44,136 nucleotides of DNA from an uncultured Eubacteriales bacterium (lineage in GTDB: Bacteria; Bacillota; Clostridia; Oscillospirales; Oscillospiraceae): NCBI GenBank assembly GCA_900319275.1, contig ONNS01000009.1, positions 1 to 44,136 on the forward strand. Reading direction: 5' to 3'. The translations under genes and the position numbers were made by a program. Numbering within the stretch: position 1 is the first letter of the stretch; the number at the start of each line of letters is the position of its first letter. Shown here in pieces: positions 6,611 through 35,908 of this stretch. Below the pieces are notes generated by a model. The model did not search any database. It was not told the DNA's origin and was given only the letters and a program-made list of their open reading frames with translations.

Positions 6611-6677
6611 AGGATAACGCAAAGACTGTAGAATGCAAGAAATATCGCACAGCCTTTCCGCAGGGCAGCATAAGCTT
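6611..6677 (-). promoter_or_regulatory. GH3-A promoter with 21-bp direct-repeat operator
   Basis: On the minus strand AAGCTTATGC (6677-6668) and AAGGCTGTGCGATA (6656-6643) start exactly 21 bp apart. Four bp later comes TTGCAT (6638-6633), then a 16-bp spacer and TATCCT (6616-6611). The first half-site overlaps the first half-site of the divergent GH78 promoter in the palindrome-like GCATAAGCTTGTGC (6668-6681). Confidence 0.72.
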
Positions 6678-6739
6678 GTGCCGCTGCGCGTCAAGGTTGT
6701 GCGATAAGGCTTTTTCCTTGCCTGCTTTTTCCGTACAAT
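6672..6739 (+). promoter_or_regulatory. GH78 operon promoter with 21-bp direct-repeat operator
   Basis: AAGCTTGTGC (6672-6681) and AAGGTTGTGCGATA (6693-6706) start 21 bp apart. Four bp later is a poor -35 box, TTTTTC (6711-6716), then 17 bp and TACAAT (6734-6739). A weak -35 beside paired repeats suggests activator dependence. Confidence 0.78.
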
Positions 6740-6771
6740 CAAAGCAACGAAAAGCATAGGAGGAGCCTGCT

Positions 6772-9129
6772 ATGAAAAAGAAACGCTTTGCCAGATGGAT
6801 CGCCCTGGTGCTCTGTCTCGCCTCCGCCCTGAGCCTCGCCGCCTGCGGGGACAGCGGCGAGCCGGCGGCCGCACCTTCAGAAACGGCGGAGAGCGCGGAG
6901 ACGGCAGCCGTCCCGGACAGAGGCGCGCCGGACCGCTCCGCGCTGAAATATACAGAGGCCATCGAGGCCTACCGAAAGAGCGATTGGTCAGCGAACTGGA
7001 TCTGGACAAAGGGCTGTTCCGAGGATAGTTATGTGGCCTTCCGCAAAACCTTTACGCTGGACGAGGACCTGCCCTCGGCGACGGCCTTCATCTCCGCGGC
7101 GGACAAATACGTCCTCTGGGTAAACGGCGAACTGACGGTGCTGGACGGCTCGCTCAAGCGCGGACCTACGCCCTATGACTCCTATTATGACGAGGTGGAG
7201 ATCACAAACCTCCAGGCAGGCGAGAACGTCATCGCGCTGCTTGCGGTGTTCAACGGACGCAGCGGCGACGGCTCCATCATGCCTGTGATCGTGGACGAAG
7301 AGGGGGACGAATATCCCCAGGCCGGCCTGCTGTTTGAAATGAAGCTCGGCAATACGAGCATCGCGTCTGACGCAAGCTGGAAGGCGCAGCGCCACACGGC
7401 GTACAAAAACCGCGTGACCGGCGGCGCGGATTATGTCCGCTACGAGCAGTCCTCCATGTTGGCCGAGCGCAACGTTTTCTTTGACGCCCGCGACGATCTC
7501 GGCGACTGGACGAGCCTCGGATACGATGACGCCGCCTGGGAAAACGCGAGCCTGATTGCAAGACCCGGGGATCTGCCTTTCGGCGCGCTCTACGCGCCGA
7601 TCATTCGCCCGATCCGCTTCCATGAGGTGAGCGATTGCCTCAACGCCGCCGGTTATCTGAACCGTGAGCTGACCGAGGATACTGTGCTGGTGCTGGAGCT
7701 GCCCGGAAACATCCAGTTCACGGCCTGTTTCGAGCTGGAAGCGCCCGCCGGCAAAAAGCTGACCTTCTATACCGACACCTATACCGATCGGGAGAACATC
7801 CCCAATTTCAAGGACACCTACATCACCGCATCCGGCGCCCAGCGCTATGAAAACTATCCCTGGCGCTCCGGCTCCAGGCTGATCATCGAGGCCGAGGCCG
7901 GCGTGACCTTTACGAAGCTCGGCTACCGCAAGAGCGAATTCAACGGCGACTGGGTCACGCCCTTCCGCTCCTCCGACGCTGCGCTGGATCAGCTGTGGCA
8001 GGAGAGCCTGAACACCGTCGCCATCTGTATGCGCGACACCTATATGGACTGCCCCGAGCGGGAGCGCGGCCCCTATATGGGAGACGCCTCCAACCAGATC
8101 GACGCCGCGCTCTACGGCTATGACGAGAGCGCGTTGGCTATGACGAAAAAGGCGATCCTGGCCTGCATTGCATGGACCACCGACTCCGGCGCGATCCCCA
8201 GCCGCGCCCCCAGCGTCAAGCCGCAGGAGATCCCCAACCAAAGTCTGGCCTTTATGTCCAGCGCTTATCACTACTGGCTCCATTCGGGTGACAGCGAGAC
8301 CATGACCGCCTATTACCGGGCTTTTGTCGATTACCTCAAGCTCTTTGAAATGGAAAACGGACTGCCCAAATACCGCGCGGGCTCCTGGCAGTGGAACGAC
8401 TGGGGCAATAAGATCGACGCGGAGCTGCTGCAGGTGGGGCTGTATTATTACGCATTGAATCTGACCCGTCAGCTGGCGGCGGATCTCGCCATCACGGACG
8501 ACGAGGCCTTCCTCACCGAGCGGATGGATTCCATGAAGGCTGCCTGGCGCGCGGCGTATACGACGCCGGAGGGCTTCCGCAGCGCAAACAGCAAGAACGT
8601 GGATGATCGGGCAAACGCCATGCTGGCTCTTTCCGGTCTGGCCGACGAGAGCGACTATGAGCAGATCTGCGCCGTGCTGACGAGTACCTGTGAAGCAAGC
8701 CCCTTTACCGAGAAGTACGTGCTGGAGGCGCTGTGCGTCATGAGCCGCGTCGATCTGGCCGTGCAGCGGATGCTTGAGCGCTATGATCCGATGCTCCATG
8801 ACGAATGGGACACGCTCTGGGAGCAGTTCAACGACAATGTGGGCACCTATAACCACGGTTGGAGCGCCGCTCCGCTCTATATTCTCTCCAAATATGTCGT
8901 CGGCGTGCGCCCCACGGCGCCGGGCTTTGCGCGCTATGAGCTGACGCTGACCGAGATACTGGACGAATACGCCTGCAGCGTGTATACGCCGAGAGGCGAG
9001 CTCCGCGTGGAGAAAGCGGGCGACACGGTGACGCTCACCGCCATCGACGGGGAGGGGACCGTGATCCTGCCCAACGGCGAAACCGTGAGCATCACAGAGG
9101 CGGGGACCTATACCATGTCCCTTAAATAA
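6772..9129 (+). CDS. GH78-like alpha-L-rhamnosidase lipoprotein
   Basis: 785 residues with a lipobox (SLAAC) and a low-complexity Ala/Glu linker, so it is tethered outside the cell. The N-terminal half holds beta-sandwich domains (ANWIWTKG; ISAADKYVLWVNGE). The C-terminal half is an (alpha/alpha)6 barrel with DCPERERGPYMGD at 426-438, the GH78 signature region, and near the end a short stretch containing YNHGW and GVRPTAPGF. GH78 enzymes release alpha-L-rhamnose from plant glycosides and rhamnose-rich pectins. The motif is a variant of the usual DCPQR form, so substrate could differ. It has GGAGGA ahead of the ATG, starts the operon GH78, GH3-B and a small membrane protein, and is divergent from GH3-A. 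Confidence 0.78.
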   Translation: MKKKRFARWIALVLCLASALSLAACGDSGEPAAAPSETAESAETAAVPDRGAPDRSALKYTEAIEAYRKSDWSANWIWTKGCSEDSYVAFRKTFTLDEDLPSATAFISAADKYVLWVNGELTVLDGSLKRGPTPYDSYYDEVEITNLQAGENVIALLAVFNGRSGDGSIMPVIVDEEGDEYPQAGLLFEMKLGNTSIASDASWKAQRHTAYKNRVTGGADYVRYEQSSMLAERNVFFDARDDLGDWTSLGYDDAAWENASLIARPGDLPFGALYAPIIRPIRFHEVSDCLNAAGYLNRELTEDTVLVLELPGNIQFTACFELEAPAGKKLTFYTDTYTDRENIPNFKDTYITASGAQRYENYPWRSGSRLIIEAEAGVTFTKLGYRKSEFNGDWVTPFRSSDAALDQLWQESLNTVAICMRDTYMDCPERERGPYMGDASNQIDAALYGYDESALAMTKKAILACIAWTTDSGAIPSRAPSVKPQEIPNQSLAFMSSAYHYWLHSGDSETMTAYYRAFVDYLKLFEMENGLPKYRAGSWQWNDWGNKIDAELLQVGLYYYALNLTRQLAADLAITDDEAFLTERMDSMKAAWRAAYTTPEGFRSANSKNVDDRANAMLALSGLADESDYEQICAVLTSTCEASPFTEKYVLEALCVMSRVDLAVQRMLERYDPMLHDEWDTLWEQFNDNVGTYNHGWSAAPLYILSKYVVGVRPTAPGFARYELTLTEILDEYACSVYTPRGELRVEKAGDTVTLTAIDGEGTVILPNGETVSITEAGTYTMSLK

Positions 9130-9147
9130 ATACAGAAGGGGTAGGAC

Positions 9148-12069
9148 ATGAGAAAGTATCAGAAATGGATCGGGCTCACCGCTCTGTTCGCGCTGTTGTT
9201 CAGCCTGGCTTTGAGCCTGACGAGCTCGGCTTTCTATTACTCCGGCTATGTGAACAGCTTCCTGGGCTTGACAGGGAAGACGATAGCTGTTGAGGGGGAC
9301 ACAAATTACTACCCCTCTGCCTATGGCGAGCTGAACGCTGTAAACGCCGATCGGCTGATGGCCGACGAAAAGGAGCACTGCATCCGCGCCATGCACGAGG
9401 GCACGGTCATGCTCCGCAACGAAAACGGCGCTCTGCCGCTCTCTGCGTCAGAGCGCAGGGTCACGATCTTCGGCAATAACGCGGCCGATCCGGTTTATCG
9501 TGCCAACGCCGGGAACGCCAGTTTTTCCGGTGAATACGGTGGGACGCTTTACGAGGCCTTTGAGCAGGCGGGCTTTCGCGTAAACCCGACAATACGCGGC
9601 GCCTACGAAAACAGCGGCGTGCGCCGCAATTCCGTCGCTTCCCGCGGCAATTCCTCCATCGGCGAGGTACCGGTCAGCTTTTATACGGATGCTATGAAGG
9701 CAAGCTTCGGCGAATATGCCGATGTGGCGTTTGTCCTTTTCACGCGCTACGGGGGAGAGGGTGTTGACCTTGATCTGAAGGATGCTGATGGCGTTCCCAT
9801 GCTTTCCCTTCACGAAAGTGAAGCAGACCTTCTCCGAATGATCCGGCAGAGCGGCGTGTTCAAGAAGACGGTAGTCCTTATCAACAGCCCCTTTGCGATG
9901 GACGTGCAGTGGATCGAGGACGGGGAATACGGCGTTGACGCCTGCCTTGTCTTTGGAGCTGCCGGAGACTACGGTTTTATCGGCCTCGCGGATATCCTTA
10001 CCGGCGCGGCTGATGTGACCGGGCACCTGGCCGACACCTGGGCAGCTTCAAGCCTGTCAAGCGCAGCGGTGCAGAACTTTGGCGACTATCAGTTTACGAA
10101 TCTCGAAAAGCTCTATGGCGACCGCTATGTCGTCTATGCCGAGGATATCTACGTCGGTTATAAGTATTATGAGACCCGGTATCAGGATGAGGTGCTTGGG
10201 CTGAACAATGCAGCATCGTCTGCTGGCGCCTTTATGGGTGACAGCTGGAGCTACGCCGACGAAATGGCGTATCCCTTCGGCTACGGCCTGTCCTATGCGC
10301 GCTTCACGCAGGAACTGGAGGATATTATTTGGGATCAGAGCGCCCACACGGTGACTGCCAGGGTAAAGGTCACGAACGAGGGCGGGTTTGACAGAGAGTC
10401 AAAATCCCTTGTCCAACTCTACGCACAGCTGCCCTATGAGGCAGGCATGGCGCAGAAATCCGCCGTGCAGCTCATCGGTTTTCAAAAAACGTCTGCACTC
10501 GGCACCGGCGAGAGTGAAACGGTCACCGTGACGGTTTCCGATTACTTTTTCGCTACCTATGACGAAAACGCGCAGAACGGGGCGGACGATTCGAAAACAG
10601 GCTGCTATGTGTTTGACGCGGGAGACTACTATTTTGCCATCGGCAGCAGCGCTCACGACGCGCTCAATAATATCATGGCGAAAAAAGGCGTGAGCGGAAT
10701 GTTCGACGAAAAGGGGAGCTCCGTCGCAGGAGACAGTGCCAAGGCTGTGAAAGCGACGCTCGACGCATACGATAACAGAAGTTATGCCATGAGCCCCGTG
10801 ACGGGAGCCATCGTATCCAATCAGCTTCAAAACGCTGACCTCAACGAATATATTGACGGCGCTGTGGCCTATCTGAAGCGCGACGACTGGAACAGCTTCC
10901 CGAAGCCTGTTGAAGATCTGACCGCTACAGATGAAATGAAAGAGCTGATGATCGGCGCTTCCTATATAAAACCGGCAGACGCGCCGGATACCGGAGAGCT
11001 TCGCTTCGGTGAGGACGTGGGGTTGAAGCTCGTCAATATGATGGACGTTCCCTATGGCGATGCGGAATGGAAAAGCTTCATTGATCAGCTCAGTATCAGC
11101 AACCTTGCCACCGTTTGCGGCGATAACCGTGGCGTCGTGGCGATCCCGGAGGTCGGCAAGCCTGCAAACGCATCCACAAACGGCCCGAGCGGTGTTCAGG
11201 GGAGCTACATCAACGGCAACGGCAAGGCCTGTACGCTTTACGTTGACGAGCCGATTCAGGCCGCAACCTTTAACCTCGAGCTTGCTGCCGAGCGCGGCGC
11301 TTTTATGGCCGAAGACGCCGCCTATGCCAATGTTACCATGGTATTCGGTCCCGGCGCAAATATCCACCGTACCGCTTATCTCGGGCGCAACAGCGAATAC
11401 TTTTCCGAGGACGGATTTCTGAGTTATCAGATGAGCCGCGCCAACGCTGTTCCCATGACGGAGAGAGGGATCATCACGGGCTTTAAGCATTTCTGCCTCA
11501 ACGATCAGGAGGTCAACCGTCATGGGGTCGCTACCTTTGCGACCGAACAGGCCTGCCGCGAGATCTACTTCAAAGCCTTCGAGGGCGCTCTCGCAGATGG
11601 CGCAGGTCTTGGCGTGATGACGAGCTATAACCGCATCGGGCTCACGGCCTCTCCGGCTCATAAGGGTGCTCAGATCGAGATTCTCCGCAACGAATGGGGC
11701 TTTAAGGGCATTAATATCACCGACTCCAGTAAGGACGCCGCTGACTATGTCCTCACCGCGGAGTGTATCACAAGCGGCACCGACCTGTTTTTAAGCGACA
11801 CAGGCAGGCAGTCTGAACTCAGCAATCTTGCTGTAAAGAACCGCGACGGAAATATCCTCAACTGGATGAAAACCGCGAATGAGCACTTCTACTATGCCCA
11901 CAGCCGCAGCGTACTCATGAACGGCCTGGCCGAGGAGACGGTCATTGAGGAAACGGTATACTGGTGGCAACCCACACTCATCGCACTGTGTGCTGGCCTG
12001 GGGGCGTTGACCGTGGCTTCGCTCGCCGTGTACATATGGAAAGCGTATCGGAAAAAGGAGGCCAAGTAA
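9148..12069 (+). CDS. GH3-B: membrane-anchored family 3 glycoside hydrolase, permuted
   Basis: 973 residues with an N-terminal membrane anchor (about 7-30) and the same reversed order as GH3-A: alpha/beta domain first (RYGGEGVDLDLK), Fn3-like domain (YPFGYGLSYARF), then barrel with FKHFCLNDQEVNRHG and nucleophile Asp859 in NITDSSKD. It ends in a membrane helix introduced by YWWQPTLIAL and a basic tail. It groups with GH3-C (15574), not with A/D: both share DTNYYPSAYG near residue 55 and TDSSKD at the active site. Cotranscribed with GH78 upstream (18-nt gap) and the small membrane protein downstream (1-nt gap). A rhamnosidase plus beta-glycosidase pair suits rhamnoglucosides, though this is inference. 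Confidence 0.9.
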   Translation: MRKYQKWIGLTALFALLFSLALSLTSSAFYYSGYVNSFLGLTGKTIAVEGDTNYYPSAYGELNAVNADRLMADEKEHCIRAMHEGTVMLRNENGALPLSASERRVTIFGNNAADPVYRANAGNASFSGEYGGTLYEAFEQAGFRVNPTIRGAYENSGVRRNSVASRGNSSIGEVPVSFYTDAMKASFGEYADVAFVLFTRYGGEGVDLDLKDADGVPMLSLHESEADLLRMIRQSGVFKKTVVLINSPFAMDVQWIEDGEYGVDACLVFGAAGDYGFIGLADILTGAADVTGHLADTWAASSLSSAAVQNFGDYQFTNLEKLYGDRYVVYAEDIYVGYKYYETRYQDEVLGLNNAASSAGAFMGDSWSYADEMAYPFGYGLSYARFTQELEDIIWDQSAHTVTARVKVTNEGGFDRESKSLVQLYAQLPYEAGMAQKSAVQLIGFQKTSALGTGESETVTVTVSDYFFATYDENAQNGADDSKTGCYVFDAGDYYFAIGSSAHDALNNIMAKKGVSGMFDEKGSSVAGDSAKAVKATLDAYDNRSYAMSPVTGAIVSNQLQNADLNEYIDGAVAYLKRDDWNSFPKPVEDLTATDEMKELMIGASYIKPADAPDTGELRFGEDVGLKLVNMMDVPYGDAEWKSFIDQLSISNLATVCGDNRGVVAIPEVGKPANASTNGPSGVQGSYINGNGKACTLYVDEPIQAATFNLELAAERGAFMAEDAAYANVTMVFGPGANIHRTAYLGRNSEYFSEDGFLSYQMSRANAVPMTERGIITGFKHFCLNDQEVNRHGVATFATEQACREIYFKAFEGALADGAGLGVMTSYNRIGLTASPAHKGAQIEILRNEWGFKGINITDSSKDAADYVLTAECITSGTDLFLSDTGRQSELSNLAVKNRDGNILNWMKTANEHFYYAHSRSVLMNGLAEETVIEETVYWWQPTLIALCAGLGALTVASLAVYIWKAYRKKEAK

Positions 12070-12070
12070 C

Positions 12071-12451
12071 ATGAAAAAACTGACAATCGGGAGAGTACTG
12101 CTCCTCATTGCGGGGGCTGTGGCGCTTTCAGGAAGCGTTCTGTACCTTGTTTTCGACGGCACAGACAGGACATTTCATACCTTTGGTTTCATTCTCGGTA
12201 TAGTCGGAGCGGCTTCCACAGCCATCGCGCTGTTCACGGACGCTGAGGTTTCCCCACTTGTGCCTGCGGTGCTTTACGCAGCAGCCTGTGCACTTGTTCT
12301 GAGGGTCGCGGTGCCGAGCCTCAGCGATGTGTGGAACCATGTAAACTTTATCGGGGGAAATGCCTTTCTTGGAATGACCTTTGCGGGTGTATATCTTACC
12401 GCAGCCATCCTTGGTGTAATTGTTTGCTTCGCGGGAATCACAAGAAAATAA
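12071..12451 (+). CDS. Small four-helix membrane protein, GH3 partner
   Basis: 126 residues, almost all in four predicted membrane helices (about 9-27, 34-54, 64-82, 100-121) with short loops. It begins 1 nt after the GH3-B stop and shares that operon. A homologue (18446) sits 1 nt behind GH3-C. They share LIAxxxAxxGxxLYLV near the start and an F-[IF]-GG-N/D segment followed by a TFA helix near the end. The family is not recognised. The repeated linkage suggests it helps insert, hold or organise the doubly anchored GH3 in the membrane. There is no catalytic motif. Confidence 0.75.
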   Translation: MKKLTIGRVLLLIAGAVALSGSVLYLVFDGTDRTFHTFGFILGIVGAASTAIALFTDAEVSPLVPAVLYAAACALVLRVAVPSLSDVWNHVNFIGGNAFLGMTFAGVYLTAAILGVIVCFAGITRK

Positions 12452-12454
12452 GAA

Positions 12455-12496
12455 AAAATGCTCCTCTGCCCTGTTAAGAGCAGAGGGGCATTTTGA
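12455..12496 (+). terminator. Terminator of the GH78 operon
   Basis: A 15-bp stem (12455-12469 with 12480-12494, one G-T pair) ending in a TTTT run. It follows the small membrane gene and abuts the MITE. The A/T-flanked stem could also work on the other strand, where it would follow the kinase gene beyond the MITE. Confidence 0.85.
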
Positions 12497-12667
12497 TAGG
12501 GCAACACCGCTTAATGCGGCAAGAGCGAATGTCGAGAAAATATGGGCGTAGGGTCTGATGATGACACTTTTTCGCAGGCATACTTTGTGTATGGCAAGAA
12601 AAAGTGACGAAATCAGGGCACAAATTTTCCGGCAGGCGCCGCAGCCGTATTGTGCGGTGTTGCCCTA
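12497..12667. mobile_element. 171-bp MITE with perfect 14-bp terminal inverted repeats
   Basis: TAGGGCAACACCGC (12497-12510) is the exact reverse complement of GCGGTGTTGCCCTA (12654-12667). The outer TA on each side could be a TA target duplication, as for IS630/Tc1-type elements. Inside is a second hairpin: CACTTTTTC (12565-12573) with GAAAAAGTG (12598-12606), and within it CATAC with GTATG. There is no coding capacity. The right end overlaps the last codon of the sensor kinase gene. Confidence 0.85.
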
Positions 12668-14011
12668 AGTCTGAGCAGGGAACAGAACACTGAGGAAAAA
12701 CATGTTGCCATCGACCTTGATCTCCAGTTTTCCGCCGTACTGTTCCGCAACATACCGGATGCTTTTGGTTCCATAGCCGTGTCGGGCGGAATCGTCTTTC
12801 AGCGTCGAGAGGTTTCCGTCGGTATAATGGATGGTCCCGTCAAAGTAATTACATTCCTCGATCTCTAACTGGCCGTCATTCTCGTGACAGGTGAGGGTGA
12901 TGACCTTGTTCTCCGGCTCTGCGAGCTTTTCCACCGCTTCGATCGCGTTGTCCAAAATGTTGCCGAAAAGAGAATAGGTTTGCACGGCACTGAGAAAAGC
13001 AAATTTCGGGCCGTCGGCCAGACAGGTGAAGGCGATCCCCTTTTTTCGACACACTATGGCTTTCTCGCAGAGAACAATATCCAGGATATCGTTGCCGGTT
13101 TTGATGTTGGCGTCGTAAAACTGAATCGCTTCACGCAGGGCATCCGTTTCTTCCTCGGTCAGCTTGCCCTCGATCCGATGGATGATGTGCTTGAGGTCAT
13201 GGCACTTCATGTTGATGACCTCCATATTGGCCTTGACCGATTCAAACTGAAGTTTTTCCTGCTTCATGAGCTGGTTGAGAACGTTGATCTGCTGCTCCTT
13301 TTCATTCTGCGAAAAGATGCCGCGCCCAAACATCAGCACCACCAGGCTGAAGATGATGGTAAAGAGCTTGATGACGATATTCAGCGCCATGCTCTCGCCC
13401 TCATAGGTGCGCGCGATGCAGACGAGGACCGTCACGATAGCCACCGTTGAAACGGAGAGAAGCACGATGTTCCGCCTGGTGCGCTTATCGCTGGTCAGGC
13501 GCCCGCGCGGATGGAAAAGGAAAACCAGGAAGCTGTATGTCCCGAAGCGAACCAGGAAAAACAGCAACCATTCCCATCCTGTGAGATCCTGAGTTTGTGC
13601 GTGAAGCAGTGAAATTGTCGCGCGGTCGTTGATCCCCAGGAGGTTTTGCAGCAGCGGATAGACCTTGTTGCCAATCTGGTAGGCAGCCATACCGCAGGAA
13701 AAAGCCATCAGAAGCTCCTCCGGCGTATCCTCCCAGCAGAAAAGCAGAAACAGAAAGTTATATAAGGCGATCAAGAGATAGCAGACGACCCGCACAAGGA
13801 GGCTTTGCGCTTCCGTGTTCCATATGGCAAGCAAATAGGCTAATATGATGCCCTCCAGAAAAACGATCGCCAGGCGCAGAAAGAAGGCATTCCGCTTTCG
13901 GACCTGACCGCAAAACAGGGCGATGCTGAGCTGAGATTCCAGAAAGGTCAGGATCAGGGAAAAGCCGTCAAAGGCGTATTTCCCCAGAATCGAAACAATG
14001 GTATCAATCAT
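12665..14011 (-). CDS. GHKL sensor histidine kinase (AgrC/HPK10 type)
   Basis: 448 residues. Six or so membrane helices fill residues 1-230, followed by a linker and a kinase core. The phosphoacceptor is His271 in MKCHDLKHII. The N box is NILDNAIEA (about 351) and the G box is HGYGTKSI. This is the class that senses peptides or membrane-borne signals and pairs with LytTR regulators. I chose the ATG at 14011, which overlaps the end of the regulator gene by 8 nt; an upstream in-frame ATG would lie deeper in that gene. The stop codon TAG is provided by the end of the MITE, so the original C-terminus may have been altered. No agrB/agrD-like genes are nearby. Confidence 0.88.
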   Translation of the reverse strand: MIDTIVSILGKYAFDGFSLILTFLESQLSIALFCGQVRKRNAFFLRLAIVFLEGIILAYLLAIWNTEAQSLLVRVVCYLLIALYNFLFLLFCWEDTPEELLMAFSCGMAAYQIGNKVYPLLQNLLGINDRATISLLHAQTQDLTGWEWLLFFLVRFGTYSFLVFLFHPRGRLTSDKRTRRNIVLLSVSTVAIVTVLVCIARTYEGESMALNIVIKLFTIIFSLVVLMFGRGIFSQNEKEQQINVLNQLMKQEKLQFESVKANMEVINMKCHDLKHIIHRIEGKLTEEETDALREAIQFYDANIKTGNDILDIVLCEKAIVCRKKGIAFTCLADGPKFAFLSAVQTYSLFGNILDNAIEAVEKLAEPENKVITLTCHENDGQLEIEECNYFDGTIHYTDGNLSTLKDDSARHGYGTKSIRYVAEQYGGKLEIKVDGNMFFLSVLFPAQT

Positions 14012-14717
14012 GCCTCGCCGCCCCCGTGAACTGGGCAAAGCGGTCGGCAAATTCCTTGCGCTTCGGGTGGCTGATCTGAAGCGCCTCTCCCGCCACCTGT
14101 ACCGTTAAGCCCTCGATCTTCTCCACATAGGCAAGGTTTACCAGCAGATAGTTGTTGCATCGGGCAAAGCCCTGCCCGTCCAGTGCCGCTTCCACGCTTT
14201 TCATGGTCTGATACTGGCGGAATTGGCCGGATCTCGTGTGGTATATGCAGTGGTGGGATCGCACCTCGACGTACGTGATGCGGTCCGGCGACAGCTTGAC
14301 AAAGCCGGTCTCCGTGCGGATGAGAACGTCACGGTCCTCCTTCTTGGGGAGCTTGCTGAGCGCCCGCGTGAATTTGAGGGCGAAGGAGGGGTATTCCACC
14401 GGCTTGACGATGAAATCGGAGGCGGAGACCTCATAGCCCCGGATGGCATACTGCCCCATGCTGGTGACAAAAATCAGCATGACGTTTTCGTCCTTCTCCC
14501 GCAGCATCCGGGAGGCGTCCATCCCGTTCATCATGGGCATCATGATGTCCATGAACACGATCTCATAGTCTCCTGCGTATTGCTCAAGAAAGCTGATCAC
14601 GTTGTAAAAAACGCAGATCTGCAGGGTCAGCTTATGCTCGTCGGCATATTTCTTCAGCGCGTTTTCCAGCCGAAGCGCGTGCTCCCTGTCATCCTCTACG
14701 ATGGCGATTCGAATCAT
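14004..14717 (-). CDS. LytTR-family response regulator
   Basis: 237 residues. The receiver domain has acidic pair D9/D10, phosphoacceptor Asp57 in VFMDIMMP and the lysine in FIVKPVEY. The C-terminal LytTR domain (about 135-235) has ITYVEVRSHHCIYHT and FARCNNYLLVNLAYVEKI. LytTR proteins bind paired direct repeats about 21 bp apart upstream of promoters. Four such pairs occur in this window, one of them in the region just upstream of this gene on the opposite strand. I chose the ATG at 14717, with AAGGGG about 9-10 nt upstream. Two further in-frame ATGs lie upstream. It is cotranscribed with the kinase and is a prime candidate regulator of the whole GH locus. Confidence 0.9.
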   Translation of the reverse strand: MIRIAIVEDDREHALRLENALKKYADEHKLTLQICVFYNVISFLEQYAGDYEIVFMDIMMPMMNGMDASRMLREKDENVMLIFVTSMGQYAIRGYEVSASDFIVKPVEYPSFALKFTRALSKLPKKEDRDVLIRTETGFVKLSPDRITYVEVRSHHCIYHTRSGQFRQYQTMKSVEAALDGQGFARCNNYLLVNLAYVEKIEGLTVQVAGEALQISHPKRKEFADRFAQFTGAARHD

Positions 14718-14740
14718 GTTTCTCATCCCCTTCATTCGAT

Positions 14741-14769
14741 ACTATAAACAATTGGCGCAAAAAAGTCAA
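14741..14769 (-). promoter_or_regulatory. Promoter of the two-component operon
   Basis: On the minus strand TTGACT (14769-14764), a 17-bp spacer and TATAGT (14746-14741) form a strong sigma-A promoter 24 nt before the chosen start codon. Unlike the GH promoters it has a good -35 box and no direct repeats, so expression is probably constitutive. Confidence 0.75.
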
Positions 14770-14800
14770 TTTGAAACGAAACTTCGTGGGCATGGGATGA

Positions 14801-14868
14801 AAGAGTGTGCTGTTTCAAAGCAAGGTTATGCGATTGGAATTGAAGAAGAGGCGTGAAACAAATATGCT
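14801..14868 (+). promoter_or_regulatory. Promoter of the lipoprotein/GH3-C operon with 21-bp direct repeats
   Basis: AAGAGTGTGC (14801-14810) and AAGGTTATGCGATT (14822-14835) start 21 bp apart. Four bp later is TTGAAG (14840-14845), then 17 bp and TATGCT (14863-14868). The spacing matches the GH78 and GH2 promoters base for base. Confidence 0.76.
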
Positions 14869-14916
14869 GTCCATGCAACAACGGGGAAAATACGCCCCGA
14901 TATAGGAGGAACGAAA

Positions 14917-15543
14917 ATGAAAAAGCTTCTGTCCATCATCCTCGCAGTCGCCATGGTGGCGGTTCTGCTGGCCGGCTGCGGCGGCAGCGCGGCGTCCGGC
15001 AACGCGAAAACCGTCGGCGTCTACCTCTCTCCCGCAGAGCTTTCCTATTCCAACATGCGTCCCCAGTATAACTACTATCTGACCACCTTCACCCAGCAGG
15101 AGATCACGCTCCTGGACGACAACACCTATGTCGCCATCGTCTCCGCTTCCACCTTCTCCGCGCTGGAGCTGGCTGAGAGCACCAACGACGCCAAGGGCAA
15201 CGAGCGCACCAACTCCATTGTCAAATACTACGGCACCTACACCTCTCAGGTAAACGATCTCGACGAGGATCTGCTGGACGTCGTCCTCTCCGCTCCCACC
15301 CGCGTCGTGGAGAGCTATGACCAGACCTACTGGCTGGATACCGACAACTGGAACGACGACATGGGCAAGAAGGTCGTGCCGCCCACGGGCGTTGATCAGA
15401 ACACCGGCGCCGCGATCTACGACCCGGACGCCCAGCCCTGGACCGCCGCCCAGTTCCTCGAAAGCCTGAGCTTCACCGGCGCAAGCATCCAGGTCAACCA
15501 GAAGACCGCCAGCTTCGATTACACGCCCGAGCTTTCGGCCTGA
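14917..15543 (+). CDS. Lipoprotein of unknown function
   Basis: 208 residues with a lipobox (LLAGC) and a Gly/Ser start to the mature chain. The rest looks like one beta-rich domain (ITLLDDNTYVAIVSAS, then IVKYYGTYTS) followed by an acidic, Tyr/Trp-rich tail with a VVPPTGVDQNTG loop. The family is not recognised. It resembles in outline the first repeat of the lipoprotein at 18893: a beta strand with D-[DG]-[NT]-[TA] followed some 50 residues later by Y-x-G-x-[YW]. It is the first gene of the operon, 30 nt upstream of GH3-C, preceded by AGGAGGAA. A surface glycan-binding partner for GH3-C is a plausible guess. Confidence 0.78.
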   Translation: MKKLLSIILAVAMVAVLLAGCGGSAASGNAKTVGVYLSPAELSYSNMRPQYNYYLTTFTQQEITLLDDNTYVAIVSASTFSALELAESTNDAKGNERTNSIVKYYGTYTSQVNDLDEDLLDVVLSAPTRVVESYDQTYWLDTDNWNDDMGKKVVPPTGVDQNTGAAIYDPDAQPWTAAQFLESLSFTGASIQVNQKTASFDYTPELSA

Positions 15544-15573
15544 TCCTGTCCACATGACCCGGAGGGACAAGCG

Positions 15574-18444
15574 ATGAAAAAATCCAATTTCTGGCGGGGC
15601 ATTTCCGTGCTGCTGATCCTCGTGCTGAGCATAACCGGCTTCGGGACCGCCCTCGCCTTCCATCGGGAAGGAGACGTCAACCTCTTTCTCGGGACCCTGC
15701 CGCCGGTTCAGGCCGTGTCCGACGATACGAACTATTATCCTTCCGCTTACGGCAGCATGGAAGAAATGCGCGCGGACCTCAAGGCCTACCTGATCCAGTC
15801 GCAGGAGGAAGGAAGCGTCCTGCTCCGCAATGAGGATAAGGCGCTGCCGCTCGGCGCTTCGGACAAGGTGACGCTCTTTGGCTACGCGGCGGCCACGCCG
15901 GTCTACCACGGGGGTTCCGGCGGCCCGGCGAACACCGGCATCAACCTGTATGACGCGCTGAAGGAGGCGGGCGTTCCCGTCAACGAAACCGTATATAACG
16001 CCATCGTCGCCGCCGGCGGCAGCAGAACGAAAACCGGTCTGATCGGCGAGATCCCGGCTTCCAGCTACAGCAGCGTGACAAACAGCTTTTCCGATTACAG
16101 CGACGCGGCAATCTATGTCATGAGCCGTTTCGGCGGGGAAGAAGGCGACCTGAACCACGGCCTGCAGAGCGACTGGCAGGAGGGCCCGGCGGACATCCCC
16201 GAGCTGCGCCTGCACCCGGAGGAGATCGAAACCCTGAAGCTGATCCAGGACTCCGGCTTTGACAAGATCATCGTAGTGCTCAATTCCGGCTACGCCATGG
16301 AGCTGGGCGAGCTGCCCGAGTACGGCGTGGACGCGATCCTGTGGGTCGGCTATCCCGGCAACTACGGCTTTACCGGCGTCGCGAATCTTCTGACCGGCAA
16401 GGCCGACCCCTCCGGAAGAAACGTGATCACCTATGCCGCGGATTCCCTCAGCTCCGCCGCCATGCAGAACGCGGGCGACTTCACCTTCTCGAATCTCACC
16501 GGCCTCTACAAGAACAAGTACCTCGTCTATGCCGAGGGCATCTATGTAGGCTACAAGTACTATGAGACGCGCTATCAGGACACGGTGCTCGGCGTCAACA
16601 ATGCCGACAGCGCCAAGGGCGTCTATGCTTCCAAAGACGGCAGCTGGAACTACGCGGACGAAATGGTCTACACCTTCGGCGCGGGGCAGAGCTATGCCGA
16701 CTTTACCCAGGAGCTTCTGAGCGTCAATTGGGACTCTGCGAGCCACACCGTGACCGCCGAGGTCAAGGTCACCAACAACGGCGGCTTCGACGGAAAGAGC
16801 AAGGACGTGGTGCAGCTCTACGTCCAGCTGCCCTGGGAAGCCGGGCAGACCGAGAAGAGCGCCATCCAGCTTGCGGACTTCGGAAAGACCGCCGCCCTTG
16901 CCAGCGGCGAGAGCGAGACCGTGACGCTCAGCTTTTCCGATTACATCTTCGCCGCCTATGACAGCAAGGCTGTCAACGGCGCCGATCCCAGCAAAATGGG
17001 CGCCTATGTCTTCGACGCCGGCGATTACTACTTCGCCATCGGCGACGACGCCCACGACGCGCTCAACAATGTTCTCGCAGCCCGAGGCGCCGAGGGCATG
17101 ACCGACGCGGAGGGCAATCCCGTGCCCGGCGACGTGGCCAAGGCCCACAAGGAGACCCTGGATCAGCTGGACAACAGCACCTGGGCCGTCTCCCCCTACA
17201 CCGGCGAGGTCGTCAGCAATCATTTTGAAGACCGCGACATCAATTATTTCATCGACGGCGCCGTCACCTATCTGACCCGCGCCGACTGGAGCACCTTCCC
17301 CGACACCGTGACCACGCTGACGGCGACGCCGGAGATCCAGGATCTGATGGAGAACTTCCAGTACGTAAAGCCTGCCGACGCGCCGGATATCAGCGTCTAC
17401 AAGTACAAGCAGGAAAACGGCATCGCCTTCATCGACATGAAGGATGTCCCCTTTGACGATCCTCAGTGGGAGAAGCTCATCGACGAGCTCGCCGTTACCG
17501 AGCTTGCTCAGATCGTCGGCGATAAGATGGCGCTCGACGCCATTGCCTCCATCGACTTCCCGGCTTATGCCGGCGGCGACGGCCCGGACGGGCACCAAAG
17601 CGGCGTGCTCTTCAATGCCGAAATGGTGGCCTCCAGCAGCTTCAGCAAGGAAGTGCTGCAAAAGCGCGGCGAATTCCTGGCCGAGGAGAGCTACTGGATC
17701 GGCTTCCGACAGATCTACGCGCCCGGCGGCAACCTTCACCGCACCCCCTACAGCGGCAGAAACTTTGAGTACTACTCCGAAGACGCCATCATGAGCTATC
17801 TCTGCGGTGAGATCCAGACCAAGGCGATGGCGGAAAACGGACTGGTGGGAACCTTCAAGCATTTCTGCGGCAACGACCAGGAGACCAACCGTCACGGCGT
17901 CGCCACCTTCATGACCGAGCAGGCCTACCGCGAAGGGCCGCTCAAGGGCTTTGAGGGCGGCCTGCAGAAGGGCCACAGCCTTGGCACGATGACGGCCTAC
18001 AACCGCATCGGCTGCATCCCGACTGCCTCCGACTATGAGACCATGACCACCGTGCTGCGAGGCGAATGGGGCTTTACGGGCATCAACATGACCGACTCCT
18101 CCAAGGACTCGGCCAGCTACATGGGCACCGGTGACGCGCTGCGGGCGGGCACCAATCAGTTTAACAACGACCCTGGCCGCGTGCCCGAGGCCTCCAACTA
18201 TCTGACCAAGGATCGTGACGGCTTTATCTGGGGCAAGCTGCGCGAGGTAGCGCACTACTATCTCTATTCCATGAGCCGCTCCAACCTGATTAACGGCCTG
18301 AACAAAGAGGTTCCCGTCGAGGACTTTACGCCGTGGTGGAAACCCGCGCTGATCGGCGTCAACGCAGCCGTTGGCGTGCTTGTGCTCGGATCCCTTGCGC
18401 TCTTCACAGTCTCCACCCTCAAGGCAAGGAAGAAGGAGGAGTAA
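15574..18444 (+). CDS. GH3-C: membrane-anchored family 3 glycoside hydrolase, permuted
   Basis: 956 residues with an N-terminal membrane anchor, then alpha/beta domain (SRFGGEEGDLNHG), Fn3-like domain (YTFGAGQSYADF), and barrel with FKHFCGNDQETNRHG and nucleophile Asp841 in NMTDSSKD. A C-terminal membrane helix follows TPWWKPALIG. It is the close paralogue of GH3-B. Two positions differ: GEEGD replaces GEGxD in the region that carries the likely acid/base Glu, and CGNDQE replaces the usual xLNDQE, so specificity may have changed. Codon use is more GC-rich than in GH3-B. It lies between two unknown lipoproteins and is followed 1 nt later by a small membrane partner. Confidence 0.9.
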   Translation: MKKSNFWRGISVLLILVLSITGFGTALAFHREGDVNLFLGTLPPVQAVSDDTNYYPSAYGSMEEMRADLKAYLIQSQEEGSVLLRNEDKALPLGASDKVTLFGYAAATPVYHGGSGGPANTGINLYDALKEAGVPVNETVYNAIVAAGGSRTKTGLIGEIPASSYSSVTNSFSDYSDAAIYVMSRFGGEEGDLNHGLQSDWQEGPADIPELRLHPEEIETLKLIQDSGFDKIIVVLNSGYAMELGELPEYGVDAILWVGYPGNYGFTGVANLLTGKADPSGRNVITYAADSLSSAAMQNAGDFTFSNLTGLYKNKYLVYAEGIYVGYKYYETRYQDTVLGVNNADSAKGVYASKDGSWNYADEMVYTFGAGQSYADFTQELLSVNWDSASHTVTAEVKVTNNGGFDGKSKDVVQLYVQLPWEAGQTEKSAIQLADFGKTAALASGESETVTLSFSDYIFAAYDSKAVNGADPSKMGAYVFDAGDYYFAIGDDAHDALNNVLAARGAEGMTDAEGNPVPGDVAKAHKETLDQLDNSTWAVSPYTGEVVSNHFEDRDINYFIDGAVTYLTRADWSTFPDTVTTLTATPEIQDLMENFQYVKPADAPDISVYKYKQENGIAFIDMKDVPFDDPQWEKLIDELAVTELAQIVGDKMALDAIASIDFPAYAGGDGPDGHQSGVLFNAEMVASSSFSKEVLQKRGEFLAEESYWIGFRQIYAPGGNLHRTPYSGRNFEYYSEDAIMSYLCGEIQTKAMAENGLVGTFKHFCGNDQETNRHGVATFMTEQAYREGPLKGFEGGLQKGHSLGTMTAYNRIGCIPTASDYETMTTVLRGEWGFTGINMTDSSKDSASYMGTGDALRAGTNQFNNDPGRVPEASNYLTKDRDGFIWGKLREVAHYYLYSMSRSNLINGLNKEVPVEDFTPWWKPALIGVNAAVGVLVLGSLALFTVSTLKARKKEE

Positions 18445-18445
18445 G

Positions 18446-18871
18446 ATGAAAAACCTGTTCAAAGACAGAAAACCCGGCTTCTATCTTACGCTGATCGCCG
18501 CGTGTCTCGCCGTTGTGGGCGCCCTCGTCTATCTCGTCGCGTATCAGGCCACGGCAGATCCCGTGACCGGCACGGTTGACCGTGTGTTCAATTGGCTGAA
18601 TTTTGCCCTGATGCTTGCCGGTGGTCTGATCGCACTCGGCGGAGAAGCCCTGCGACTGCGTTTCGTACCGATCGTTGCCGGCGCCTGTTATGCCATTGGG
18701 CTGGCCCGCCATCTGGTAGAAACGGCGTATCCTCTGGCTGACGTACTGACCAAGGTGCCGTTCTTTGGCGGCGATCCCACGTTGGCTGTCACATTTGCCG
18801 CAGTCTTCGGCCTGGCAGCGCTGATCCACGTGGTGTCGTCTTTCATGGAGCATAATCAAGTCGTTCAATAA
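18446..18871 (+). CDS. Small four-helix membrane protein, GH3 partner
   Basis: 141 residues with four membrane helices (about 13-31, 50-68, 72-92, 112-133). The ATG at 18446 has GGAGGA six nt upstream and lies 1 nt after the GH3-C stop. It is homologous to the protein at 12071: same length class, helix spacing, GG-D/N segment before the last helix and conserved position behind a GH3 with a WWxP tail. The family is not recognised. A chaperone-like or scaffold role for the GH3 is inferred from context only. Confidence 0.75.
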   Translation: MKNLFKDRKPGFYLTLIAACLAVVGALVYLVAYQATADPVTGTVDRVFNWLNFALMLAGGLIALGGEALRLRFVPIVAGACYAIGLARHLVETAYPLADVLTKVPFFGGDPTLAVTFAAVFGLAALIHVVSSFMEHNQVVQ

Positions 18872-18892
18872 AAAACACAGGAGGAATAACAC

Positions 18893-20230: not shown

Positions 20231-20250
20231 TCGTACAGCACAAGGAAAAA

Positions 20251-20276
20251 GGCCCCGAATCCTCGGGGCCTTTCTT
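20251..20276 (+). terminator. Intrinsic terminator before GH3-D
   Basis: A perfect 8-bp GC-rich stem, GGCCCCGA (20251-20258) with TCGGGGCC (20263-20270), a 4-nt loop and a TTTCTT tail. It lies only about 30 nt before the GH3-D start codon, leaving little room for a new promoter. Confidence 0.9.
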
Positions 20277-20301
20277 AAAAGATGATGCAAAGGAGCTCTT
20301 T

Positions 20302-23256: not shown

Positions 23257-23263
23257 CCGGAAG

Positions 23264-23296
23264 AGTCCCGCAGGCGAAGGCTTGCGGGGCTTTTTC
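23264..23296 (+). terminator. Intrinsic terminator between GH3-D and VTC gene
   Basis: AGTCCCGCA (23264-23272) pairs with TGCGGGGCT (23283-23291) with one G-T pair, followed by TTTTT. The VTC start codon is about 20 nt further on. Confidence 0.82.
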
Positions 23297-23312
23297 AGAA
23301 AGAAGGGAGCCT

Positions 23313-23984
23313 ATGCCGTTTCGGCACGAGATCAAGCATGAGATCAACCGACAGGACCTGCTGGTGCTGCGTTCCCGGCTGGGGGCCGTGATGGCGCGCG
23401 ACAGCCACGCCCGCGGCGGAGCATACAGGATACGCAGTCTGTATTTTGATAACCTCTACGACCGGGCCCTTCTGGAAAAGCTGGACGGCTGCTCCGTAAG
23501 GGAGAAATACCGGCTTCGCTATTATAACGGCGATACCTCCTGCATCAAGCTGGAAAAGAAAAGCAAGGTGAACAGCCTCTGCCGCAAGGACTCTGTCTGC
23601 CTGAGCGCCCGGGAGGCGCAGGCTATTCTGGACGGCGAGCTTGACTGGCTCTGCGCGAGCGGAAAGCCGCTGCTTCAGGAGTTTTACGCGAAAAGTCAGG
23701 CTCTGGGCCTACGCCCGAAAACCATCGTGGACTATACGCGCGAGCCGTTCCTTTTCGCGCCCGGCAATGTGCGGGTAACGCTCGATACCGACATCCGCAC
23801 AGGAATGCGCTGCACGGATTTTTTGAATCAGGAGATCGTGACCGTTCCCGCCGGCGACCCCTACGGTATTTTGGAGGTCAAATGGGACGCGTTTCTCCCC
23901 GACGTGATCCGGGACCTTGTACAACTGCCGGGCAGGCGTGCCGGGGCTTTTTCCAAATACGCCGCCTGCAGAATCTATGGATAA
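23313..23984 (+). CDS. VTC-domain protein (polyphosphate polymerase-like)
   Basis: 223 residues forming a single VTC tunnel domain. The expected basic and acidic residues are visible: YRIRSLYFDN near residue 28, REKYRLRYYNGD near 59, KLEKKSK near 74 and EVKWD near the end. The domain is related to yeast Vtc4, which makes polyphosphate from ATP. Bacterial versions are less well studied. It is soluble, with no membrane segment of its own. It is followed by DUF4956 (membrane) and CotH, a recurrent trio in Clostridia, so the three probably act together at the membrane. The ATG is preceded by AAGGGAG. Confidence 0.85.
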   Translation: MPFRHEIKHEINRQDLLVLRSRLGAVMARDSHARGGAYRIRSLYFDNLYDRALLEKLDGCSVREKYRLRYYNGDTSCIKLEKKSKVNSLCRKDSVCLSAREAQAILDGELDWLCASGKPLLQEFYAKSQALGLRPKTIVDYTREPFLFAPGNVRVTLDTDIRTGMRCTDFLNQEIVTVPAGDPYGILEVKWDAFLPDVIRDLVQLPGRRAGAFSKYAACRIYG

Positions 23985-23996
23985 CAGGTGAAAGCA

Positions 23997-24671
23997 ATGC
24001 AAACATTTTCTGATATTTTCAATTCCAGTTTTCTGGAAAACGTGACTTCTGTCAGCCTTTTGGATATGGCGCTGGCGCTGCTGCTGTCTTTTGCGCTGGG
24101 CTTATTTATCCTTTTCGTATATAAAAAGACCTATCAGGGCGTCATGTACTCCTCCAGCTTCGGCGTAACGCTGATCGCGCTCACCATGATCACGACGGTG
24201 GTCATCCTGGCAGTGACCTCGAACGTGGTACTGTCCCTCGGCATGGTTGGCGCTCTGAGCATCGTCCGCTTCCGGACGGCGATCAAGGACCCGCTCGACA
24301 TCGCGTTTCTGTTCTGGGCTATCGCGGTGGGCATCGTGCTGGCAGCCGGCTTTATCCCGCTGGCCGTGTTCGGCTCGCTGATCATCGGCCTCGTCCTGAT
24401 CCTGTTTGTCAATCAGAAAACGCATCTCAGCCCCTACATCGTGGTGCTTAGCTGCGCAGACGGCGCGGCGGAGGACAGAGCGGCGGCCTTTCTGAAGCAG
24501 AAGGTGCAAAAGTGCATCGTAAAATCCAAAACGGTGCGCCCGGGGCTCATAGAGCTCAATATGGAGATCCGGCTGAAGGAGGATCGCACTGACTTCATAA
24601 ACGATCTTGCCGCCCTGGAGGGCGTTCACAGCGCGGTGCTCGTCAGCTACAACGGCGAATACATGGGATGA
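23997..24671 (+). CDS. DUF4956 membrane protein
   Basis: 224 residues. Membrane helices at about 17-37, 50-70 and 95-135 surround the family hallmark GALSIVRFRTAIKDP, then a cytosolic ferredoxin-like tail (about 140-224). The function of DUF4956 is unknown. It is regularly found beside VTC and CotH genes. The ATG at 23997 has AGGTG 7 nt upstream; a GTG at 23988 is possible. It lies 12 nt after the VTC stop and 3 nt before CotH. It may be the membrane channel or anchor that lets the VTC enzyme pass its product across the membrane, by analogy with the yeast VTC complex. Confidence 0.85.
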   Translation: MQTFSDIFNSSFLENVTSVSLLDMALALLLSFALGLFILFVYKKTYQGVMYSSSFGVTLIALTMITTVVILAVTSNVVLSLGMVGALSIVRFRTAIKDPLDIAFLFWAIAVGIVLAAGFIPLAVFGSLIIGLVLILFVNQKTHLSPYIVVLSCADGAAEDRAAAFLKQKVQKCIVKSKTVRPGLIELNMEIRLKEDRTDFINDLAALEGVHSAVLVSYNGEYMG

Positions 24672-24674
24672 GCC

Positions 24675-26261
24675 ATGGTAAGCAGCAAGTATTTTGACCG
24701 GATCGTGGCTGCCGTCCTTGTGCTTGCCGTCGCGCTCACGGTGCTGATGATGAACGGGGAAGCCCTCGGCCTGTACCGAAGCCCTGCGGAACCCGCGGCG
24801 CCGGACTATGACACGCTGCTTTTCGACGACAGCTTCGTCCACAGCATCGACATCTCCATGCCGGACTGGGAGGTCTTTACCGCAAACTGTACCGATGAGA
24901 AGTACGGCGCCTGCACCGTAACGGTGGACGGCGAGACGCTGGAGCATGTGGGTATCCGCGCGAAAGGAAACGGCTCCGTGTTCGCCGTGGTCATGATGGA
25001 CAGCAGCCGCTTCAGCTTCAAGCTGGAGTTTGACCACTTCCTGGAAAACCAGAGCTATCACGGTCTGGACAAGCTGAATCTGAACAATCTGGTGCAGGAC
25101 GCCACCTATATGAAGGACGCCCTGGCCTATCACCTGATGCGGGAGATGGACGTTCCGGCGCCGCTGTGCTCCTATGTCTTCGTGACGGTAAACGGCGAAG
25201 ACTGGGGCCTGTATCTGGCGGTGGAGGGGCTGGAGGACGGCTTTATGAACCGCAGCTTCGGCGCGGAGCACGGCCTTCTCTATAAGCCGGACAGTCAGGG
25301 CATGAACATAGGCTTTTTTGCAGGGATCATCCGTCGGCTGCCAAAGGATTTTACGCAGCGCGCGGAGGAAGCGGACCCGGAGCAGGTGGAGGCCTTCATG
25401 GAGCGCTTCGGCCTTGACGAACTGCAGAACGATGTGAATATGCTGAACTTCGCGTTCCTCGGTTACGACGCGCCGGATCTGCGCCTGCAATACAGCGGCG
25501 AGCGCCCCAAGGACTACGAAAACATTTTCTCAAAAGCCAACACCAGGATCGGGAAAGGGGACATGGCGCGCCTGATCGCGTCGCTCCGGCGCCTCTCTGC
25601 CTTCGAGGATCTGGAACATACGGTGGATATCGACGAGGTCATCCGCTATTTCGCCGTCCACAACTTCCTGGTCAACAGCGACAGCTACACCGGGTCCTCG
25701 GTTCACAACTACTACCTCTATGAGACGGACGGCCTGCTCTGTATGCTTCCGTGGGACTATAATCTGGCTTACGGGACCTTTTTGATGGACGCGGCCAGCG
25801 CCGTCAACGATCCGATCGACAGCCCGCTGAGCGTGTCCGGAGACGGCAGCCGACCGATGTTCGACTTCATCCTCCGCGACGCGTCTTACACCGCGCAATA
25901 TCACGAGCAGATCCGAAGGATGCTCGGGGCGGTGGATATGGATGCCTATCTGGAGGAAACAGAGCGTATGATCTCCGAGTATGTCCGGCGCGATCCCACA
26001 AAGTTCGTTTCCTATGAGGAGTTTGAGGCCGGCGCACAAATGCTGAGGCTCTTCTGCCGGCTTCGGCGCGAAAGCGTGGAAGGTCAATTGGCGGGCCTCA
26101 TTCCCGCTGACCGCGAAGGGCAGGCGGAGCACCCGGAGCTGCTGCTCAGCCCGGACGGTCTGGTTCTGCATACCCTGGGCGATGTGACCATGGGGATGGG
26201 AATCGACGGCTGGGAGGCCTATACCGCGCTCAGCGAAACTGCCGACGACCGGCAAGAATAA
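24675..26261 (+). CDS. CotH-family protein kinase-like protein, membrane-anchored
   Basis: 528 residues. An N-terminal membrane segment (about 10-28) places the CotH domain outside. Visible family motifs are GIRAKGNGS (about 91-99), HGLDKLNLNN, and MLPWDYNLAYG, in which Asp361 and Asn363 match the DYN motif that binds metal-ATP in CotH. CotH proteins phosphorylate secreted targets in spore coats and also occur in cellulosomal systems. The C-terminal extension (about 460-528) has LLLSPDGLVLHTLG and is not recognised. It ends the VTC/DUF4956/CotH operon. An extracellular kinase needs a phosphate donor outside the cell, which makes its pairing with a polyphosphate-type synthase notable. Confidence 0.87.
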   Translation: MVSSKYFDRIVAAVLVLAVALTVLMMNGEALGLYRSPAEPAAPDYDTLLFDDSFVHSIDISMPDWEVFTANCTDEKYGACTVTVDGETLEHVGIRAKGNGSVFAVVMMDSSRFSFKLEFDHFLENQSYHGLDKLNLNNLVQDATYMKDALAYHLMREMDVPAPLCSYVFVTVNGEDWGLYLAVEGLEDGFMNRSFGAEHGLLYKPDSQGMNIGFFAGIIRRLPKDFTQRAEEADPEQVEAFMERFGLDELQNDVNMLNFAFLGYDAPDLRLQYSGERPKDYENIFSKANTRIGKGDMARLIASLRRLSAFEDLEHTVDIDEVIRYFAVHNFLVNSDSYTGSSVHNYYLYETDGLLCMLPWDYNLAYGTFLMDAASAVNDPIDSPLSVSGDGSRPMFDFILRDASYTAQYHEQIRRMLGAVDMDAYLEETERMISEYVRRDPTKFVSYEEFEAGAQMLRLFCRLRRESVEGQLAGLIPADREGQAEHPELLLSPDGLVLHTLGDVTMGMGIDGWEAYTALSETADDRQE

Positions 26262-26276
26262 ATATGCGTGATAAAA

Positions 26277-26311
26277 CAAGGCTCTCTGCATTGAAACGGC
26301 AGGGAGCCTTG
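26277..26311. terminator. Hairpin after the CotH gene
   Basis: A 13-bp stem (26277-26289 with 26299-26311, one G-T pair) and a 9-nt loop between cotH and the next promoter. There is no T-tract on the plus strand, and on the minus strand the stem is followed by TTTTAT. It may still terminate or insulate. Confidence 0.6.
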
Positions 26312-26338
26312 CCGTATACGATCTTTATCTCACAGCGG

Positions 26339-26406
26339 AAGCTTATGCCGTGTTAGTGCAAGCTTGTGCGATTCGGCTTTTTGCCAATCGTCTTGTCTGG
26401 TATAGT
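26339..26406 (+). promoter_or_regulatory. GH2 operon promoter with 21-bp direct-repeat operator
   Basis: AAGCTTATGC (26339-26348) and AAGCTTGTGCGATT (26360-26373) start 21 bp apart. Four bp later is TTTTTG (26378-26383), then 17 bp and TATAGT (26401-26406). The layout is identical to the GH78 and 14.9-kb promoters, and this operon lies 12 kb from the nearer of them. Confidence 0.78.
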
Positions 26407-26449
26407 AAGCTTGTCAGCAGGCAGAGATTGATGATTGGAGAGGGGTATC

Positions 26450-28384: not shown

Positions 28385-28388
28385 GCCG

Positions 28389-29801: not shown

Positions 29802-29815
29802 AGGAGGACAAAAGC

Positions 29816-31603: not shown

Positions 31604-31620
31604 CAGGGAGAGATTAGACC

Positions 31621-34769: not shown

Positions 34770-34779
34770 TATAAATAAA

Positions 34780-34802: not shown

Positions 34803-34808
34803 CTCGTA

Positions 34809-35843: not shown

Positions 35844-35908
35844 AGCCTTCACCCCTCATTTGTTATTCTACCATACTGAAAGCTCAATGAAAAGGGAGGA
35901 TTTCCGGT

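Follow-up and report, generated by a model that had tools for sequence, protein, structure and literature searches.

A 21-bp direct-repeat operator shared by four glycoside hydrolase promoters, and its probable GHKL/LytTR regulator, in an uncultured Oscillospiraceae bacterium

The window, by which we mean the whole analysed stretch of 44,136 nucleotides from an uncultured member of the Oscillospiraceae, encodes several predicted surface enzymes of the GH3 and GH78 families, an esterase, a lipoprotein, an operon of intracellular processing and uptake genes, and two sets of regulatory genes. The features that concern us are the following.

2603..3634, minus strand: GDSL esterase with a lipobox, regulon gene
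3631..6579, minus strand: GH3-A, with its GH3 domains in reversed order and a hydrophobic segment at each end, regulon gene
6772..9129, plus strand: GH78 rhamnosidase-type lipoprotein, regulon gene
9148..12069, plus strand: GH3-B, in line after GH78, presumed regulon gene
12665..14050, minus strand: GHKL sensor histidine kinase (PF14501; five hydrophobic segments by a simple scan), proposed sensor
14004..14735, minus strand: response regulator with receiver (PF00072) and LytTR (PF04397) domains, both above cut-off, proposed operator-binding protein
14917..15543, plus strand: lipoprotein of 208 aa, regulon gene
15574..18444, plus strand: GH3-C, in line after the lipoprotein gene, regulon gene
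26435..32955, plus strand: operon of GH2, GH43, MFS_2 transporter and carboxylesterase
34809-35852: AraC-family protein with a cupin-type domain

Among the regulon products are lipoproteins, as well as GH3 enzymes that have a hydrophobic segment at each terminus; the 208-aa lipoprotein has no Pfam or NCBIfam match. A further GH3 gene, GH3-D at 20302, has no operator pair in the window, and is followed by VTC-domain, DUF4956 and CotH genes (22854-26261) that lie directly upstream of operator D.

A preliminary description of this DNA had proposed that four glycoside hydrolase promoters share a repeated operator. A pattern search of the window recovered all four repeat pairs where they had been placed, each with 21 bp between the starts of its two half-sites (n=4 in the window), and their consensus can be written AAG..TRTGC-N11-AAG.YTRTGCGAT. 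The promoters listed with them were read from the sequence.

Operator A, 6643..6677, minus strand: AAGCTTATGC...AAGGCTGTGCGATA, 21-bp direct repeat before GH3-A/GDSL esterase
Operator A promoter, 6611..6638, minus strand: TTGCAT, 16-bp spacer, TATCCT
Operator B, 6672..6706, plus strand: AAGCTTGTGC...AAGGTTGTGCGATA, before GH78/GH3-B
Operator B promoter, 6711..6739, plus strand: TTTTTC, 17-bp spacer, TACAAT at 6734-6739
Operator C, 14801..14835, plus strand: AAGAGTGTGC...AAGGTTATGCGATT, between the LytTR regulator gene and the lipoprotein/GH3-C genes
Operator C promoter, 14840..14868, plus strand: TTGAAG, 17-bp spacer, TATGCT at 14863-14868
Operator D, 26339..26373, plus strand: AAGCTTATGC...AAGCTTGTGCGATT, before the GH2/GH43/MFS/carboxylesterase operon
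Operator D promoter, 26378..26406, plus strand: TTTTTG, 17-bp spacer, TATAGT at 26401-26406

At each of operators A-D the -35-like hexamer starts 4 bp past the second 14-mer, and the spacer lengths, 17 bp for operators B, C and D and 16 bp for operator A, are likewise those first described. In terms of 9-mers, the layout consists of 9-bp cores separated by a 12-bp gap, with 9-10 bp to the -35 box depending on the register chosen. Operators A and B stand back to back and overlap by 6 bp in the palindrome AAGCTT (6672-6677), so that their distal half-sites have DNA in common.

The pair is specific to these promoters. Even with 3 mismatches allowed, 100 dinucleotide-shuffled copies of the window contained no match, and across the bacterium's own genome (3.04 Mb, 161 contigs) the pattern is confined to the four promoters rather than scattered at random positions, the sole extra being one 3-mismatch match; a reversed control pattern gave no match in the same genome. 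The extra match, on contig C131, was rejected as a fifth regulon member, as it lies inside an antiporter-like reading frame.

Two candidate regulators are encoded in the window, the AraC protein and the GHKL/LytTR pair. AraC-type activators also use 21-bp direct repeats adjoining the -35 box, and the operator position would suit an activator of this type encoded, as the AraC protein is, in the same window. Against this, AraC orthologues at 96-98% identity (G040, G049 and G034, and in G030 a copy broken by a stop) belong to genomes, 83-94% complete and all of the same genus, in which the pattern has no match at up to 2 mismatches, and the orthologous loci have no matrix match. The two longer loci (L091 and L093, from G040 and G034) have a collinear MFS/AraC/GH43/GH2 block at about 95-98%; their fetched stretches otherwise match only paralogues of GH2/GH43. 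The AraC protein was accordingly rejected as the regulator of the operator, its orthologues occurring without the pair, and we regard it as a highly improbable binder of the repeats. The block to which it belongs (33303-41685), also present as fragments in L092 and L094, is separate, has no LytTR operator, and is probably under its own AraC regulator.

The operator-binding regulator is most likely the GHKL/LytTR pair at 12665-14735, not the AraC protein at 34809-35852. The LytTR regulator gene is divergent from operator C, and the wider evidence comes from its relatives in other genomes. Among 101 other genomes of the genus the closest LytTR relative is at most 45% identical; ten loci with a 57-68% identical regulator were found in other metagenome-assembled genomes and in Gemmiger gallinarum (L061). 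Nine of these loci include DNA upstream of the regulator gene, and in all nine the pair is located between that gene and a lipoprotein or GH3 gene; the tenth (L055) is a regulator orthologue whose upstream DNA is missing and which stands outside the count. A later search of 400 genomes of the family added three orthologues (G480, G752 and G564; 58-60%) that carry it as well. This brings the regulator-first total to 12 of the 12 loci examined in which a regulator of 57-68% identity comes with upstream DNA; at most 10 of them are independent, because L059, L060 and L162 have one identical site sequence.

The reverse search began from the operator. A generalised pair, searched in 394 genomes of the order, matched in 16 genomes and gave 15 matches outside the own genome; 14 of these fall within open reading frames (161-1010 aa) of 2-3-kb loci that have no homologue of the window's genes, and a reversed-pattern control gave 13 matches, about the same number. 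The fifteenth, in G480, adjoins the 60%-identical LytTR regulator. G564 and G752 do not appear in the operator-first table even though their operators were seen, and were therefore not among the genomes drawn. Allowing two mismatches, the pattern matched in four relatives.

Within the ten foreign loci, a weight matrix built from the four window sites found 25 pairs at a lag of 21 bp (overlapping registers in L058, L059 and L060 being counted apart) versus 0-5 at each of 17 other lags. Twenty-three of the 25 lie 56-137 bp upstream of a same-strand labelled gene (criterion, 300 bp), so the operator is kept upstream of orthologous genes; these encode the lipoprotein, GH3-A, GH3-D, GH78, GH43 and one 282-aa product (in L053) whose label, TIM282, was added by hand. 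For a pair in L057 (5254-5288) no target gene can be seen, and another, in L058 (6666-6700), is situated inside the kinase gene. GH3-D, which has no pair in the window, has orthologues that do carry one in L053, L054, L056 (weakly) and L061. Of 23 foreign sites, 19 have a -35 box that is poor beyond the TT, 19 have at least four of six consensus bases in the best -10 box, chosen from ten offsets, and 10 have a 17-bp spacer. Upstream of the lipoprotein gene of L058 (4896-4951) there are three consecutive half-sites in 21-bp steps.

Carried back to the window, a matrix from 8 foreign sites found exactly operators A-D at lag 21 (24-31 bits), against 3 pairs in total at 17 other lags. An 85-position model of 15 foreign promoters placed operators A-D (E 7e-6 to 6e-4) ahead of everything else in the own genome, where the following match had E 0.73, in a scan that scored 150 of 393 first-look candidates; elsewhere it reached E 0.01 or less in 9 other genomes, with scores of 20 bits or less and mostly over partial stretches of the model. 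Since the foreign training sites were first chosen with a loose pattern derived from the window, the 8-site matrix and the 85-position model are partly window-dependent, and the tests made with them fall short of being fully blind; less affected are the comparison of lags, the positions relative to genes and the three orthologues that turned up later. A 19-site matrix gave 30 matches in the window and orthologous loci (0.19 Mb), 19 of them training sites, and 3 matches in 67 loci without a close orthologue (1.03 Mb).

Neither of the two outcomes that would have counted against the preliminary description, random positions or a lack of conservation at orthologous loci, was obtained. The own-genus genomes searched, however, gave no convincing pair except in L119; a close orthologue of the regulator is absent from all of them. 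In L119 (G052) a class-A-like pair (7897-7931) precedes a 77% orthologue of GH3-A, while the adjacent LytTR regulator is only 40% identical; the operator there is perhaps a moved promoter or reflects a shared specificity. The original proposal of one regulon under one DNA-binding factor, which left the regulator unnamed, is well supported, the pair being promoter-specific genome-wide and kept before orthologous genes elsewhere, and so is the suggested connection of outer trimming enzymes with the GH2/GH43/transporter operon, because in L056 a separate copy of the operator stands before the GH43 orthologue. The regulon is real. We propose, with a probability of about 0.9 and from comparison of sequences, that the 21-bp repeat is the operator of the GHKL/LytTR pair, which would activate the surface-enzyme genes and the GH2/GH43/transporter operon together.

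By the proposed mechanism, a signal at the membrane would lead the kinase to phosphorylate the LytTR regulator; one regulator monomer would sit on each repeat (core, 9 bp; gap between the cores, 12 bp), both on the same face of the DNA; and the bound regulator, 9-10 bp upstream of weak -35 boxes, would recruit RNA polymerase, jointly switching on the surface GH3, GH78, esterase and lipoprotein genes and the GH2/GH43/transporter operon. The simplest reading is a dimer bound along a single face of the DNA and touching the polymerase; binding, phosphorylation, activation and the signal are all inferred.

Several other explanations have to be weighed. The proximity of the LytTR pair is by itself no proof of binding, and a regulator encoded elsewhere might bind the repeats while the LytTR pair is a mere neighbour; this is very improbable, as the pair travels with the LytTR regulator across genera in both search directions, and the operators of sister systems (described below) change along with the regulator clade. 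That the pairs arose by chance, or are duplicated promoters of common ancestry without function, might be entertained for the GH3 genes, which are paralogous and whose promoters could be copies. Its probability is negligible, given that repeats and phasing are kept while the flanks and inter-repeat spacers differ, and that the pair also precedes genes unrelated to one another (GH78, GH43, GH2) and recurs in other genomes.

The sign of regulation is a separate matter. We read the factor as an activator because of the position of its sites and the poor -35 boxes. Operator C, lying between divergent genes, could also act on the regulator's own promoter, and a LytTR protein is able to repress, as the available part of a study of AgrA describes for bsaA (PMC4227749). 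A repressor, or a dual-acting factor, at these promoters is nevertheless unlikely, since the operators, whose phasing is nearly constant, lie upstream of the -35 boxes instead of covering the promoter, and those boxes are poor.

The reading as operator of an activating LytTR regulator agrees with the known layout of such sites, to judge from those parts of the cited papers that were accessible. LytTR sites in general consist of two 9-11-bp repeats with an 11-13-bp gap, and are said to have no common consensus (PMC4847170); those of the LytTR regulatory systems of Streptococcus mutans and others are 9-bp direct repeats, mostly with a 12-bp gap and biased to 10 bp upstream of the -35 box, where the LytTR protein activates (PMC6193735). 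The window has the receiver followed by a LytTR domain that marks a response regulator of this type, the same repeat length and gap, and repeats just upstream of -35. The S. mutans systems share the 21-bp start-to-start spacing upstream of -35 with the window, but their LytTR protein is partnered by a membrane inhibitor and acts on its own operon and bacteriocin genes, in place of a GHKL kinase and glycoside hydrolase targets, and the repeat sequence differs (PMC6193735). YpdB of Escherichia coli, also a LytTR response regulator, binds two tandem repeats sequentially; it acts at the yhjX promoter in pyruvate-related nutrient sensing, and its repeats have another sequence than those of the window (PMC4847170). 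AgrCA likewise consists of a kinase and a receiver-LytTR regulator, with a dimer that binds direct repeats upstream of promoters (PMC4227749); the window differs in its carbohydrate-gene targets, in spacers of 16-17 and not 18-20, and in a genome without an AgrB match.

The window's kinase is AgrC-like in being a GHKL kinase with a multi-pass membrane sensor (PF14501, five hydrophobic segments), AgrC itself being a GHKL-class kinase. An AgrB (PF04647) profile search of the own genome, which is 97.7% complete, gave no match, and a classical Agr peptide circuit is therefore not indicated; the search had no strong positive control, because 14 control genomes yielded one weak match and none over cut-off.

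That LytTR regulators occur near membrane-anchored GH3 genes is already known: the accessible part of a 2010 account of Butyrivibrio proteoclasticus describes three, each near a secreted GH3 with a C-terminal membrane helix, and there covers this neighbourhood, which is as here, without an operator or regulon (PMC2914790). Beside the glycan loci of Roseburia and Eubacterium rectale, regulators are mostly of LacI and AraC types, one LytTR regulator being listed in a Roseburia locus, in the part of that source available (PMC5320581). A literature search, made largely without subscription papers, gave no recognisable report of this operator or regulon.

The LytTR regulator also has many more distant relatives. 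Sister loci were drawn from 59 other regulator matches: 37 of the 42 at E 2.2e-40 or better were fetched, and the 17 weaker ones were left out. A GH3 gene lies within 6 kb in 27 of these 37 GHKL/LytTR loci, four of which are in the own genome; the expectation of 1.3 from GH3 density is too low, because at most 8 candidates per genome were scored, at a stricter threshold than the neighbour count. A single genome, G035, has eight matches to the regulator, and the six fetched (L100, L101, L109, L112, L117 and L118) are each near a GH3 gene.

Several sister systems appear to have 21-bp repeats of their own, with a sequence that follows the regulator clade. Self-repeats at lag 21 occur in 18 of 97 sister-locus upstream regions, some in coding DNA, versus 6 or fewer at other lags. 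A self-repeat together with a -10 box, upstream of genes homologous to those of the window, was found in 20 of 97 at lag 21 (one site, in L121, being counted from both strands, and a few looking like chance), compared with 0-3 of 97 at other lags from 14 to 30. Operator classes track the regulator clades with 6 changes, the minimum possible (mean after shuffling, 13.3; none of 200 shuffles gave so low a number), on classes that were assigned by hand, with near-copies inflating the clustering, a support of 79 for group A and 26 of 51 rows without a class. Residues at the DNA-contact motif of AgrA, FFRCHNS in the part of the source available (PMC4227749), differ between classes, and RCNNY/F stands there in 10 of 11 regulators of the class-A clade.

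Upstream of the GH2 orthologues (74-76%) in six sister loci no clear 21-bp pair was seen. In L104, L105, L106 and L113, 76% orthologues of the window's GH2 lie behind GH3 genes of another operator class, so that the same enzyme seems to be wired to a different LytTR pair. Farther afield, a GH3-like gene is divergent from a 34-35% identical LytTR regulator in Streptococcus cuniculi (L063, 6922-10723; L064, 5602-10723), with a weak 21-bp repeat between the two genes; L063 also has a repeat at lag 26 and L064 at several other lags, and L062 has no 21-bp repeat in the stretch examined.

We think it somewhat probable that GHKL/LytTR systems form a large family in these bacteria, with several insulated members in each genome. 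Private 21-bp repeats, co-diverged with the regulator, would wire each system to a membrane-anchored GH3 glycan module of its own, and the modules and their code would move as units between genera. The LytTR class is better known from quorum sensing and virulence; the two-component pair described here would have an operator that is defined, and its regulon would be a coherent one in which surface hydrolases are joined by an uptake operon. Its value lies in a clean operator, in carbohydrate targets, and in sister systems with private operators, and as several of the latter appear to have operators of their own, the recognition rules of LytTR domains become testable by pairing regulators with operators. 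If such a family exists, it would offer a natural data set from which the DNA-recognition code of LytTR could be read.
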